Assembly: GCF_039641995.1 (NCBI RefSeq)
Contig: NZ_CP087714.1
Coordinates: 682,001 to 746,000, forward strand
Direction: 5' to 3'
Length of the DNA: 64,000 nucleotides
DNA from: Geoglobus acetivorans
GTDB lineage: Archaea > Halobacteriota > Archaeoglobi > Archaeoglobales > Archaeoglobaceae
The position numbers were made by a program, and so were the translations under genes. The notes beneath the pieces are model-generated. The model did no database searches and was not told the origin of the DNA. It saw only the letters and a program-made list of their open reading frames with translations. Each line of letters begins with the position of its first letter. Position 1 is the stretch's first letter. Shown piece after piece: positions 12,311 through 16,525 of this stretch.

Positions 12311-12601
12311 GATATGCTGACTATATATCCTTTACTTCACCTGCAATTTGCGGCAATTATTTTCTCCGGTTTCTGACAGACTGTTTTACGGGGTTTCTGG
12401 CGTTGGTTTTCCGTATCTGCTATCTTGGAATTGTAATTTTTAACGATGTTAATTATAAGCGCTAAATAATTTATGATTAAAAATAATGAAGGAAATCCCG
12501 GTATTTAAGGATTCGGTTTTTCATCTGCCTCTTTTTACACATCAATACTTCAAAACCTTTAAATATTTTCGAATCTTAGTATGTAATGGGGGTGAATGGA
12601 T
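12311..12601. other. about 290-bp AT-rich intergenic region upstream of the cytochrome operon
   Basis: No gene is seen. It contains the mtnA promoter at its left end and, at 12555-12568, the TATA-like ACCTTTAAATATTT that probably drives the cytochrome/NrfD operon, followed by Shine-Dalgarno GGGGGTG at 12588-12594. The AT-rich middle (12430-12490) could hold regulatory sites; I see no convincing palindrome. Confidence 0.5.
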
Positions 12602-12892
12602 ATGAACGAAGCTATGTTGGTAATTACGGTTGGCATTCTTGGAGGTATTGTCAATCTGCTGCTGGCCTACGTGAAGAAGTGGGAGCTGCTTGCAGTGTTC
12701 ACACTGGCTCTGGTGTTTCCGATAATCGGAGTGCTGCTCATAGATGCATTGTATGGCAACATGGGCTGGTTTGGGGCAATAGTGATGTTCTCCGCAATGG
12801 TGGGCATTCTTGGACTGACAGCGATCTCGGTGGTTGCAGTTGCAGTACAGAGCCTGTCAACCGTCAAGGAACCGGAAAAGGCTGAGCATTAA
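12602..12892 (+). CDS. small membrane protein at head of cytochrome operon
   Basis: 96 residues from the second ATG, chosen because it lies 7 bases after GGGGGTG; the first ATG (12596) is only one base away from it. Three hydrophobic segments fill almost the whole protein (about residues 5-22, 31-50, 58-84), ending in a charged tail. I do not recognise a family. It lies 30 bases upstream of the octahaem cytochrome, separated by a T-rich stretch, and may be an accessory or anchor subunit of the complex encoded downstream. Confidence 0.7.
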   Translation: MNEAMLVITVGILGGIVNLLLAYVKKWELLAVFTLALVFPIIGVLLIDALYGNMGWFGAIVMFSAMVGILGLTAISVVAVAVQSLSTVKEPEKAEH

Positions 12893-12921
12893 ATTTAATT
12901 TTTTATATTTTTGGTGGTGGA

Positions 12922-13608
12922 ATGAAACACGTTTTTAGAGCCTTATTTGTATTTCTGAATATCCTGATCATTTTTTTGGGAGTGATTATTGCCCTGAGAT
13001 CAATGGGCGAAGAATTCTATCCGGGCATGGCTGACAAGCTTCTTGGAGTCGAGGGCATCTATGGGATCAGTGGCGAGGCCAAAGAGCTGACAAAAAAACC
13101 GGTTTTTGCTGATGCTGGTTACTGTGAGAACTGTCACCAGGAGGTATTTGCCACTATTAACAGGAATTACCATGGATTTGACTGTCAGACCTGCCACGGA
13201 CCGCCAGATGGTCATCCAGGTTCCGATATGGTTGTGAACAAGTCATCCGGTTTCTGCCTGATGTGCCACAGGAATGTTATTGGCAGATATGAGGCTGTGG
13301 TCTCTACAGTGGGCGATGACCATGGAGCTGGCAGGCAGTGTGTCGAGTGTCACAATCCCCACGAGCCATACCAGTGTTCCACCTGTCATTCTGACGTTTA
13401 TGACAGGATTGTAGCCGGAAAACACACGACAGATTGCAAGGCATGCCACGGAGAAGTTGGCGATCATCCGAAATCACCTGCACCTGTAATAGAAAATCCT
13501 GACAGGCTGTGCCGGAAGTGCCATACTCTGAACATGCCGGCGAGTCATGAGCCTGACTGGAAGTGTACGACGTGTCATGAACCCCACAATCCTATGAGTA
13601 GTGGATGA
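12922..13608 (+). CDS. membrane-anchored octahaem c-type cytochrome
   Basis: 228 residues with one N-terminal hydrophobic helix (about residues 5-27) that looks like an uncleaved anchor. Eight CXXCH motifs follow: CENCH, CQTCH, CLMCH, CVECH, CSTCH, CKACH, CRKCH and CTTCH. The haem domain should face the outside of the cytoplasmic membrane. It is followed 11 bases later by an iron-sulphur subunit and then NrfD, an arrangement like quinol-oxidising Nrf/Qrc-type complexes. Its likely job is to accept electrons from that module and pass them outward (inference). Confidence 0.9.
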   Translation: MKHVFRALFVFLNILIIFLGVIIALRSMGEEFYPGMADKLLGVEGIYGISGEAKELTKKPVFADAGYCENCHQEVFATINRNYHGFDCQTCHGPPDGHPGSDMVVNKSSGFCLMCHRNVIGRYEAVVSTVGDDHGAGRQCVECHNPHEPYQCSTCHSDVYDRIVAGKHTTDCKACHGEVGDHPKSPAPVIENPDRLCRKCHTLNMPASHEPDWKCTTCHEPHNPMSSG

Positions 13609-13619
13609 GGTGATGGGCT

Positions 13620-14321
13620 TTGCAGAGGCGAGAGTTCGTTAAAAAGATCATAGCTGGTTCAGCCATTGTGCTGATGATAAAGCCGGCCAAGAGTGATGAC
13701 GTTTTCATTTACATTGTCGATGCTGCTAAATGCATAGGGTGTGGGAGCTGTGTGCGAGCGTGCAGGAAGGAAAATAAGGTCATGGAGGGCAAATACAGAA
13801 CCTGGGTTGAGAGATATGTGGTTACGACGGATGGCAGCATAGAGTCAGTCCACGTCGAGTCCCCACACGGTGGTGAGTACGGGTTTGAAGACATCGAGGT
13901 TAATGATGAAGTGCTGAGAACGTATTTTGTTCCAAAGCTCTGCATGCACTGTGAAAAGGCACCCTGTGTGAAGGTGTGTCCCGTAAAGGCCACGTGGCTA
14001 ACTCCAGAGGGTGTCGTCCTGATCGACAAGTCTCACTGCATAGGGTGCAAGTACTGCATTCAGGCCTGTCCCTATGGTGCGAGATACTTCAACCACCATG
14101 AGAGGGTTGTTGACAAATGCACCTGGTGTTATCACAGGATTATGCGGGACCTGAAACCTGCATGCGTTACAGTATGTCCGACAGGAGCGAGGATTTTTGG
14201 AAAGCTAAGCGATGAACACATTCAGGCAGCTCTGAGGGACAGAAACATCCAGGTGCTAAAGCCTGAGCTGAATACAAGACCCAAGGTCTTTTACAAGAAT
14301 GTCGGCTGGGAGGTGTGGTAA
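13620..14321 (+). CDS. Tat-exported four-cluster ferredoxin subunit (NrfC/DmsB type)
   Basis: 233 residues from a TTG start, supported by GAGGTGAT 5-12 bases upstream. QRREFVKKIIAGSAIVLM at the N-terminus is a twin-arginine signal, so the protein is exported folded. Four [4Fe-4S] binding sets are present: CIGCGSCVRAC, CMHCEKAPCVKVCP, CIGCKYCIQACP, and CTWCYHRI...CVTVCP. Such subunits wire an NrfD-type quinol-oxidising subunit to an extracytoplasmic redox partner. The stop codon is immediately followed by the ATG of nrfD, indicating tight coupling. Confidence 0.93.
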   Translation: MQRREFVKKIIAGSAIVLMIKPAKSDDVFIYIVDAAKCIGCGSCVRACRKENKVMEGKYRTWVERYVVTTDGSIESVHVESPHGGEYGFEDIEVNDEVLRTYFVPKLCMHCEKAPCVKVCPVKATWLTPEGVVLIDKSHCIGCKYCIQACPYGARYFNHHERVVDKCTWCYHRIMRDLKPACVTVCPTGARIFGKLSDEHIQAALRDRNIQVLKPELNTRPKVFYKNVGWEVW

Positions 14322-15479
14322 ATGAGTGCTACAACGCTTTTTGAGGGCTACGTGTATCCCAATCACGAGGTGTTCTGGGGAATCCTCATCGTCATATATC
14401 CCTATTTCGTGAGCATCATTACCGGGATGGTAACAATCTATGCAATTGCTGAATTCTGGAAAAAGGAGCTTAAAGACCTGGAAAAACTCGTTGTGGTTTC
14501 AAGCCTCCCATTCGTTCTTTCAGCTCTCATGCCTTTGCTTCTTGACCTCGGTCAGCCACAGAGAGCGTTTGAACTCTATGTAACTCCAAACTTCAGCTCG
14601 GTAATGGCCGTCTTCGGTATAGTGTATCTGACCGAGCTTTTCACGCTGCTCGGCGAGATGTGGTTCCTCTTCAGAATTGACATTGTTAACAGGGCTCTGA
14701 ACGAGAGAAACCCGGTTTTAAAGCTCCTTTACAGAATACTGACCCTGGGAGTTTACGATACGAGCGAAGAGGCGAGAAATGTGGATAAGAAGGTCATAAA
14801 GATTTTAACAGGGATTGAGCTGATTGCGGCATGGTGTCTCAGCTACGTTTCATTCCTGTTCGGTGTCGTCAAGTCAAATCCATGGTGGAACACTACGATT
14901 CTGCCGGTAAGCTTCGTGTTTGGAGGGCTTGCTGCGGGAGGAGCGATGGTTCTTCTGCTTTACATCGCATTCACTGCACGCTATGGAGTTGGGAGGAAGC
15001 CTGAGATCATTGCGACCGTGTCAAACTACGTCTTCTATTTCCTTCTCGCTGCCTTCGCTCTTGAAACTATAAACACCATTCTCTACGCATACAAGGAGGA
15101 TATTGCCTGGGCAGTCATCAAACTTGCATCAACACAGCTTGCAATTCCTCTCGCGATTCAGGTCATAGGCTCGCTGGAGGCACTGCTGTTTCTGAGGTAC
15201 ATCTGCTACAAGTGCAGGAATGGCAGCATGAACACGCTCTTTGTTACAATAGCCGCACTCACAATTCTTGTTGTGGTCTTTGCAATGAGGTGGAACATGG
15301 TCATCGGTGCACAGCTGATCGACTACAGTCTCAGAGGGTTCGTGTCATACACACCACCACTGCTTGGAAGAGAGGGTCTGCTGGCTGCACTCGGTGTGCT
15401 GCTTGCACCTTTCGTGATGCTGCCAATAGTAACATATTTCTTTCCACCCTACGAGAAAAAGGTTAGTGTTAAGCTATGA
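14322..15479 (+). CDS. nrfD: NrfD/PsrC-family membrane subunit
   Basis: 385 residues with about nine to ten hydrophobic segments. EGYVYPNHEVFWGILIVIYPY at the N-terminus, LLDLGQPQRAFELY near residue 70 and GGLAAGGAMVLLL near 205 match NrfD-family integral membrane subunits that exchange electrons between (mena)quinone and a periplasmic-side ferredoxin subunit. It carries no haem motif. The gene starts directly after the ferredoxin gene and overlaps the decahaem cytochrome gene by 4 bases (ATGA), so the three products are probably made in equal amounts. Confidence 0.93.
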   Translation: MSATTLFEGYVYPNHEVFWGILIVIYPYFVSIITGMVTIYAIAEFWKKELKDLEKLVVVSSLPFVLSALMPLLLDLGQPQRAFELYVTPNFSSVMAVFGIVYLTELFTLLGEMWFLFRIDIVNRALNERNPVLKLLYRILTLGVYDTSEEARNVDKKVIKILTGIELIAAWCLSYVSFLFGVVKSNPWWNTTILPVSFVFGGLAAGGAMVLLLYIAFTARYGVGRKPEIIATVSNYVFYFLLAAFALETINTILYAYKEDIAWAVIKLASTQLAIPLAIQVIGSLEALLFLRYICYKCRNGSMNTLFVTIAALTILVVVFAMRWNMVIGAQLIDYSLRGFVSYTPPLLGREGLLAALGVLLAPFVMLPIVTYFFPPYEKKVSVKL

Positions 15480-16525
15480 AATGGACATGTCCGTTCTGCG
15501 GATCAGAAAACGAAACGAAAGACTACAGGTGTGAGGTCTGCGGGAAGAAATTCAGGGTATCAGGGGGCAAGCTGGTAGAGGTCAAAACCAGACCTCCAGA
15601 GTACCTGATCTCAATTTTTTTAATACTGGCCTTTTTGCTCTTCAATGCTGCTCTGATTGGAATCGAATATGCCAGTGACCCCAGGCTGTGCACCACCTGT
15701 CATCAGATGGAGTACTACTTCCACAGCTGGGAAGAGTCCACGCACAAGGGCGTAAAATGCTACGTCTGCCATTACGGCACAAACCCTGTGGACTTTGTAA
15801 GGGGTGCATACCACTCGCTGTCAGTCCTTTCCGAAAAGCCGCAGGTCTACAGAAACCTGCCTGCCAATGTCTCATCTGACAACTGTCTTGCCTGCCACAG
15901 AAACATTACGAATGTGGGTTATCTGAATTACAAGAACCTTTCTTTCAGCCACAGCAACCATCTCAGCGGGTATAAGAGAGGTTTTCTGCATCTCGAATGT
16001 GTGAGCTGTCACAGGGAAATAGTGATAGGCAGCCACATTGCCGTGAAGGATACGACATGTTTTGTCTGCCACTTCTACAAGACTCCTGAGGGACTTCCAA
16101 TTACCGGCTGTCCGTCCTGCCACAAAAGCCCGTCAGATAACATTGAGCTTGGAAACATATCCTTCAGCCATTCACTGCACCTTGAAAAGGACATCAAGTG
16201 CGAGTTCTGCCACAAGGAAATCATAAAGTTCTCTGGAAATATGTCACTGAACTGCAAGCAGTGTCATGGCGACGATGACGTTCTCACGAAACAGCTATCT
16301 GATCTGGAAATACATTCTATCCATGTGAATTCCTACAAGCTGGATTGCGTAACCTGCCATGAAATGCCGGAGCACAAGCCAAAAGTGGATTTCGATAAAT
16401 GCTCACTGTGTCACCGTGGCATGGAAATCAGGTTTCAGGGTCCAGTTGAAGTCAATGAAAATACTGTAAAAGTGAATGGAACATTGAATGAAAGGCCCTA
16501 CGACGTACCTATTTCTTCTCCCTGA
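15476..16525 (+). CDS. decahaem c-type cytochrome with N-terminal zinc ribbon
   Basis: 349 residues with three parts. Residues 1-25 form a zinc ribbon (CPFCGSENETKDYRCEVCGKKF). Residues 42-63 are one hydrophobic helix (YLISIFLILAFLLFNAALIG). The remainder holds ten CXXCH motifs: CTTCH, CYVCH, CLACH, CVSCH, CFVCH, CPSCH, CEFCH, CKQCH, CVTCH and CSLCH. With no cleavable signal, the zinc ribbon should be cytoplasmic and the haems outside. The first haems (CTTCHQMEYYFHSWEESTHKGVKC) resemble NapC/NirT quinol-side cytochromes. Last gene of the operon; its 3' end overlaps the convergent zpr1 gene by 17 bases. Confidence 0.92.
   Translation: MKWTCPFCGSENETKDYRCEVCGKKFRVSGGKLVEVKTRPPEYLISIFLILAFLLFNAALIGIEYASDPRLCTTCHQMEYYFHSWEESTHKGVKCYVCHYGTNPVDFVRGAYHSLSVLSEKPQVYRNLPANVSSDNCLACHRNITNVGYLNYKNLSFSHSNHLSGYKRGFLHLECVSCHREIVIGSHIAVKDTTCFVCHFYKTPEGLPITGCPSCHKSPSDNIELGNISFSHSLHLEKDIKCEFCHKEIIKFSGNMSLNCKQCHGDDDVLTKQLSDLEIHSIHVNSYKLDCVTCHEMPEHKPKVDFDKCSLCHRGMEIRFQGPVEVNENTVKVNGTLNERPYDVPISSP

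Follow-up and report, generated by a model that had tools for sequence, protein, structure and literature searches.

A five-gene operon in Geoglobus acetivorans

We analysed a 64,000-nucleotide stretch (the window; positions 682001-746000) of the complete, 1,903,522-base genome of Geoglobus acetivorans. This stretch contains an operon of five open reading frames (ORF1 to ORF5, Table 1). An earlier note on this sequence had described the operon as an electron conduit composed of a membrane protein, an octahaem cytochrome, a ferredoxin exported by twin-arginine translocation (Tat), an NrfD protein and a decahaem cytochrome. All five genes lie where the earlier note had placed them and carry the features it had ascribed to them, including 18 CxxCH haem motifs, eight in ORF2 and ten in ORF5. 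The gaps between consecutive genes measure 29, 11, 0 and -4 bases, and the genes flanking the operon are unrelated and mostly housekeeping. An element TCAAAA(C/G)CTTTAAATA lies upstream of the operon in the window and is conserved in other Geoglobus genomes (G001, G002 and G004).

G001 is a G. acetivorans-like genome and the nearest to the window. Comparison of the two gave 14/0, 44/10, 41/4, 70/6 and 60/13 synonymous/non-synonymous changed codons for ORF1 to ORF5. Since synonymous changes outnumber non-synonymous ones, all five genes look to be under purifying selection, most visibly ORF1. The 14 synonymous changes without a single non-synonymous one also indicate that ORF1 is a real gene.

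Table 1. Features of the operon, in coordinates of the window.
Feature	Position	Strand	Remarks
Operon	12602-16525	+	five genes
Archaeal promoter, B recognition element (BRE)-like CAAAACC and TATA box TTTAAATA	12551-12565 (TATA box 12558-12565)	+	predicted from sequence; about 40 bases 5' of first start codon
Ribosome-binding site of ORF1, GGGGGTGA	12588-12595	+	relatives keep GGGGGTGA or GGAGGTGA
ORF1	12602-12892	+	96 amino acids; orphan membrane protein; three predicted helices (3-25, 28-51, 55-88)
ORF2, octahaem c-type cytochrome	12922-13608	+	228 amino acids; 8 CxxCH; Cytochrome_C7/c3 families; hydrophobic N-terminus
ORF2, first tetrahaem domain	13123-13353	+	orthologous to single tetrahaem domain of relatives
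ORF2, second tetrahaem domain	13375-13578	+	putative lineage-specific in-gene duplicate; best non-identical matches are tetrahaem orthologues of same operon
ORF3, Tat-exported NrfC/PsrB/DsrO-type ferredoxin	13620-14321	+	233 amino acids; RR motif; 16 Cys in four 4Fe-4S motifs; TTG start
ORF4, NrfD/PsrC-type integral membrane quinone protein	14322-15479	+	385 amino acids; about 9 helices (hydropathy); PF03916, E = 1.4e-31
ORF5, decahaem NapC/NrfH-type cytochrome	15476-16525	+	349 amino acids; 10 CxxCH; PF03264, E = 2.4e-9; one N-terminal helix
ORF5, zinc ribbon (CPxC-x10-CxxC)	15488-15541	+	N-terminal; predicted cytoplasmic
ORF5, transmembrane helix	15596-15676	+	residues 41-67
ORF5, ten CxxCH motifs	15689-16414	+	first is CTTCHQM, as in NrfH

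The individual subunits

Among solved structures, the closest to ORF3 is that of PsrB, the NrfC protein of a polysulphide reductase (2vpw, E = 8.9e-41). A profile of ORF4 made from 12 relatives matches the NrfD-type subunit C of alternative complex III (6f0k, E = 8e-9). ORF3 remains below the cut-off of its best-matching respiratory-reductase models, and the scores against the NrfC and NrfD equivalog models also fall short (131.5 of 377.6 bits and 32.8 of 347.6 bits).

The profile of ORF5 matches NrfH (2j7a, E = 4e-6). The protein has the layout of the NapC/NrfH family, with an N-terminal anchor followed by a NapC-type haem domain, in which the first haem motif reads CxxCHxM and the methionine (M78) is invariant. 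A feature missed by the earlier note is the zinc ribbon that precedes the helix. The four cysteines of this ribbon (C5, C8, C19 and C22) are invariant in eight ORF5 orthologues, and AlphaFold models the region as strands with a predicted local distance difference test score (pLDDT) of about 84. Beyond residue 67 the model is unusable for the decahaem part (pLDDT mostly 22-48). Since nine Lys/Arg residues precede the helix and the haems follow it, the zinc ribbon is predicted to reside on the cytoplasmic side. Its role is probably in assembly or regulation rather than in the transfer of electrons.

The octahaem form of ORF2 occurs only in the window and in G001; in the other orthologous operons the protein consists of 153-159 residues with four haem motifs. 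When we searched six genomes with the second half of ORF2, the top matches after itself and its G001 orthologue were the tetrahaem orthologues from the same operon (38-41% identity, E 2e-8 to 2e-10), and other cytochromes ranked lower. Measured against shuffled controls with fixed Cys and His, the two halves resemble these tetrahaem orthologues with z-scores of about 8-12 and 6-7, and each other more weakly (z = 3). The simplest reading of these comparisons is a tandem duplication of the tetrahaem domain in the G. acetivorans lineage. The earlier note had counted two membrane-anchored cytochromes. This assignment is well supported for ORF5 by its single helix and NapC-type domain; for ORF2 it is less certain, as the hydrophobic N-terminus could be a membrane anchor or a cleaved signal.

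ORF1 has no meaningful match to any Pfam or NCBIfam family, in line with the earlier description of an orphan protein. The AlphaFold model consists of three helices (pLDDT 82.7), and a fold search against the PDB returned nothing significant (best E = 5.8). Two Ferroglobus genomes contain a second, stand-alone ORF1 homologue of 91 residues (L070:6254-6529 and L071:6582-6857), away from cytochrome and NrfD genes.

Distribution and a paralogous operon

The distribution of the operon was examined in 36 Archaeoglobaceae genomes and in 393 genomes of the phylum. Besides G. acetivorans and G. ahangari, orthologous operons are present in Ferroglobus and in two more lineages of the Archaeoglobales. 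Orthologues of ORF5 were found in the genome of the window, four other Geoglobus genomes, two Ferroglobus genomes, JdFR-37 (G018) and G037, a member of a different family within the order. ORF1 and the ORF5 orthologue share precisely the same distribution, 9 of the 393 genomes. The operon and the ORF5 orthologue were not found in the other 28 of the 36 Archaeoglobaceae genomes (G010 included), two draft genomes from the genus Geoglobus (G003 and G005) are without the operon, and no further full-length ORF5 match appeared among the 393 genomes. Within this set, neither ORF1 nor the zinc-ribbon decahaem protein occurs outside the Archaeoglobales, and three genomes of the more distant family f36 match ORF5 only without the zinc ribbon. 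Synteny among iron-reducing Archaeoglobales had been suggested as a check on the earlier proposal, and the operon is indeed found in the iron-reducing genera Geoglobus and Ferroglobus and is missing from most other Archaeoglobaceae searched.

The complete genome encodes a second operon of similar design at 1,096-1,100 kb, which comprises a small membrane protein, a tetrahaem cytochrome, a Tat ferredoxin, an NrfD protein and a dodecahaem NapC-type cytochrome. Homology between ORF1 and the small membrane protein that heads this paralogous operon was not detected (hhalign probability 0.6%). The genome contains two NrfD genes only, one in each module. In G002 and G037 the two modules are separated by no more than a few kb, and in JdFR-37 a dodecahaem gene is located directly 3' of ORF5. 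In a tree of 44 NrfD proteins, which carries a long-branch warning for other rows, the eight ORF4 orthologues form a clade with the paralogous group and the NrfD proteins of two f36 genomes (support 99/100). The NrfD that adjoins ORF5 in G037 falls outside this clade. Since this protein is placed elsewhere in the tree, G037 appears to combine the same kind of cytochrome and ORF1 with a non-orthologous NrfD, in a different gene order.

Catalytic partners, quinones and surface cytochromes

The earlier note had found no catalytic subunit of a nitrite or polysulphide reductase. The operon indeed contains neither a catalytic subunit nor NrfA, and for the molybdopterin-dependent kind this observation extends to the complete genome. 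A search with the molybdopterin-oxidoreductase family PF00384 returned FwdB (formylmethanofuran dehydrogenase) as the sole match; this protein is encoded in a fwd cluster, as judged by reading of the neighbouring proteins. The genome also contains menaquinone genes of the futalosine pathway (MqnA/D-type).

A cytochrome island of about 20 kb at genome positions 284700-305000 encodes proteins with 4, 4, 22, 29, 4, 8, 15 and 8 haem motifs; two sequence stretches join between the last two of these, which may therefore belong to a single protein. The 22-haem and 29-haem proteins measure 1319 and 1659 residues. Similar giant cytochromes have been reported for Geoglobus and Ferroglobus (PMC9012536), and the cytochromes of the island are likely surface cytochromes. 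Neither ORF2 nor ORF5 showed a domain for anchoring at the surface. The earlier claim that the operon itself carries electrons to the cell surface is doubtful: the separate island encodes giant multihaem cytochromes and is the better surface candidate. An octahaem cytochrome (L088:12101-13444) carries a PGF-CTERM motif and is probably anchored to the surface by an archaeosortase.

A probable menaquinol:cytochrome c oxidoreductase

We interpret the operon, with a probability of about 75%, as coding for a menaquinol:cytochrome c oxidoreductase located at the external side of the cytoplasmic membrane, which would feed extracellular cytochromes and finally Fe(III). This reading is the best available because both NrfD genes reside in such modules, FwdB is the sole molybdopterin-oxidoreductase match, the only NrfA-family hit is partial, menaquinone genes are present, and Fe(III) is the only electron acceptor of Geoglobus species (PMC4600277 Table 5; PMC8280799). 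The operon also contains what characterizes iron-sulphur (FeS)-NrfD quinol:cytochrome c oxidoreductases in the broad sense: an NrfD protein, an exported ferredoxin with four 4Fe-4S clusters, and multihaem cytochromes without a catalytic subunit. The quinol-oxidizing module postulated by the earlier note thus finds support in domain content and in the menaquinone genes.

The path of electrons that we infer would begin with oxidation of menaquinol by ORF4. From there, electrons would enter the four 4Fe-4S clusters of exported ORF3 and continue to the octahaem ORF2, the decahaem ORF5 or both. These cytochromes would then reduce the separately encoded extracellular multihaem cytochromes, from which Fe(III) would receive the electrons. 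ORF1 may be a small membrane subunit that has a structural role or helps in assembly.

Several observations weigh against this interpretation and lend substance to other explanations. NrfD complexes can also run toward quinone reduction, as Qrc does, and it is conceivable that the present complex likewise runs backwards and reduces the quinone pool with electrons drawn from outside (in Ferroglobus, for instance, from Fe(II)). Ferroglobus is capable of anaerobic Fe(II) oxidation (PMC8280799). The operon is, however, also present in G. acetivorans and G. ahangari, for which Fe(III) is the sole acceptor and which provide no independent reason for reverse flow; we consider this direction highly improbable. 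The NapC-type domain of ORF5 could constitute a second entry point for quinol. If ORF5 were the main, CymA-like quinol dehydrogenase, the FeS-NrfD pair would form a parallel branch. The PF03264 match, the similarity to NrfH and the CxxCHxM motif of the first haem are consistent with this idea, and the G. ahangari orthologue GAH_01256 has been drawn as a CymA-like quinol oxidase (PMC8280799). On the other hand, the same operon contains a complete FeS-NrfD quinone module that is conserved together with ORF5, and the alignment of ORF5 with NrfH stops short of the quinol-site lysine and aspartate positions, so that these residues could not be placed in ORF5 with the alignments made. We regard this arrangement as unlikely.

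The operon could also be the electron entry for a reductase of a soluble acceptor (nitrite, polysulphide, thiosulphate or tetrathionate) that is encoded elsewhere, since ORF3 and ORF4 belong to the superfamily of PsrB/PsrC, TtrB and NrfC/NrfD. The search of the complete genome with the NrfA-family model PF02335 returned one partial match, in a hexahaem, lipoprotein-like protein (L088:13650-15032) with a lipobox-like start. This same protein matches MtrC/MtrF-like domains II/IV (PF22113, above cut-off) with slightly more bits than PF02335. Together with the isolated PF00384 match to FwdB, the restriction of Geoglobus to Fe(III), and the failure to find nrf genes in G. ahangari (PMC4600277), this result makes a soluble-acceptor partner very unlikely. 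A nitrite or polysulphide reductase as the main explanation was rejected after the whole-genome searches with PF02335 and PF00384. Returning to the menaquinol:cytochrome c oxidoreductase, we note that its correlation with iron reduction is tied to phylogeny: Geoglobus and Ferroglobus are closely related, so that the distribution may reflect one or a few gains in related genera.

Relation to known systems

Clusters that combine FeS, NrfD and multihaem proteins are already known in Methanoperedenaceae, Geobacter and Shewanella. The NrfD-type menaquinone:cytochrome c oxidoreductase clusters of Methanoperedenaceae resemble the present operon in containing NrfD, a 4Fe-4S ferredoxin and multihaem cytochromes, and have been proposed to export electrons (PMC7327174). 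They contain other cytochromes, such as the 3-haem and 6-haem proteins of one Ca. Methanoperedens operon (PMC7082337). Cbc4 (CbcSTU) of Geobacter and SirCD of Shewanella likewise consist of an FeS protein and a membrane quinone protein that feed cytochromes of extracellular electron transfer, and SirCD can substitute for CymA, also with ferric citrate (PMC11434368). These bacterial systems, likened here by description, have other cytochrome partners. Within the DsrMKJOP (DsrO, DsrP, DsrJ) and Nrf/Psr/Ttr systems, ORF3 scores with the TtrB, DsrO and NrfC models and ORF4 with NrfD; both are under the equivalog cut-offs, and the operon lacks catalytic or DsrMK partners. ORF2 and ORF5 weakly match the cytochrome subunit of alternative complex III, to which the ORF4 profile also points. 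That complex contains a large ActB fusion and two NrfD-like subunits, in contrast to the one NrfD and the 233-residue ferredoxin of the operon.

The G. ahangari orthologues GAH_01253 and GAH_01256 have already been proposed to act in a quinol-to-Fe(III) pathway. GAH_01253 contains four haems, as its operon encodes a tetrahaem rather than an octahaem ORF2; the computed mass is 16.93 kDa if the protein is cut after residue 33, compared to the published 16.9. For GAH_01256, with ten haems, the computed mass is 43.56 kDa and the published one 43.6. A 2015 paper on G. ahangari used mass alone to connect GAH_01253 with a haem protein of the cell surface that is linked to the reduction of Fe(III) oxide. 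The term NrfD is absent from the texts of PMC4600277 and PMC8280799, and we saw neither ORF1 nor the zinc ribbon nor the structure of the operon mentioned in these papers. NrfD complexes have been described as frequent in metal reducers, with citation of the G. acetivorans genome paper (PMC7327174, PMC7082337). In the literature searched, only these two articles contain Geoglobus and NrfD together, with Geoglobus mentioned in the reference list. The genome paper may already describe the operon. Apparently unreported are the linkage of FeS-NrfD to ORF1, the zinc ribbon of the decahaem cytochrome, the duplication in ORF2, the non-orthologous NrfD in one lineage, and the pairing with a paralogous operon.

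The operon, which has a paralogue, is a defined five-gene candidate for the step that takes electrons from the quinone pool to cytochromes outside the membrane in iron-breathing archaea. In this complete Geoglobus genome, both of the NrfD genes sit in modules of such a type. Genomes that deserve a test for Fe(III) respiration may be recognized by the presence of ORF1 and the zinc-ribbon cytochrome. More tentatively, and with odds well below even, these two proteins could mark a distinct type of electron-export complex that is specific to the Archaeoglobales. A zinc-binding domain in the cytoplasm would then control how an electron conduit on the other side of the same membrane is assembled or how active it is, and the complex would tolerate exchange of its NrfD subunit and doubling of its tetrahaem carrier.

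Related gene sets

In G037 (L035:1451-13470) the two modules are neighbours and are accompanied by a Rieske-like gene as well as genes for 5-haem and 2-haem cytochromes. Two f36 genomes (L066:3019-8665 and L069:885-6780) contain FeS, NrfD, 5-haem and 12-haem genes in a row, an arrangement related to the paralogous module.

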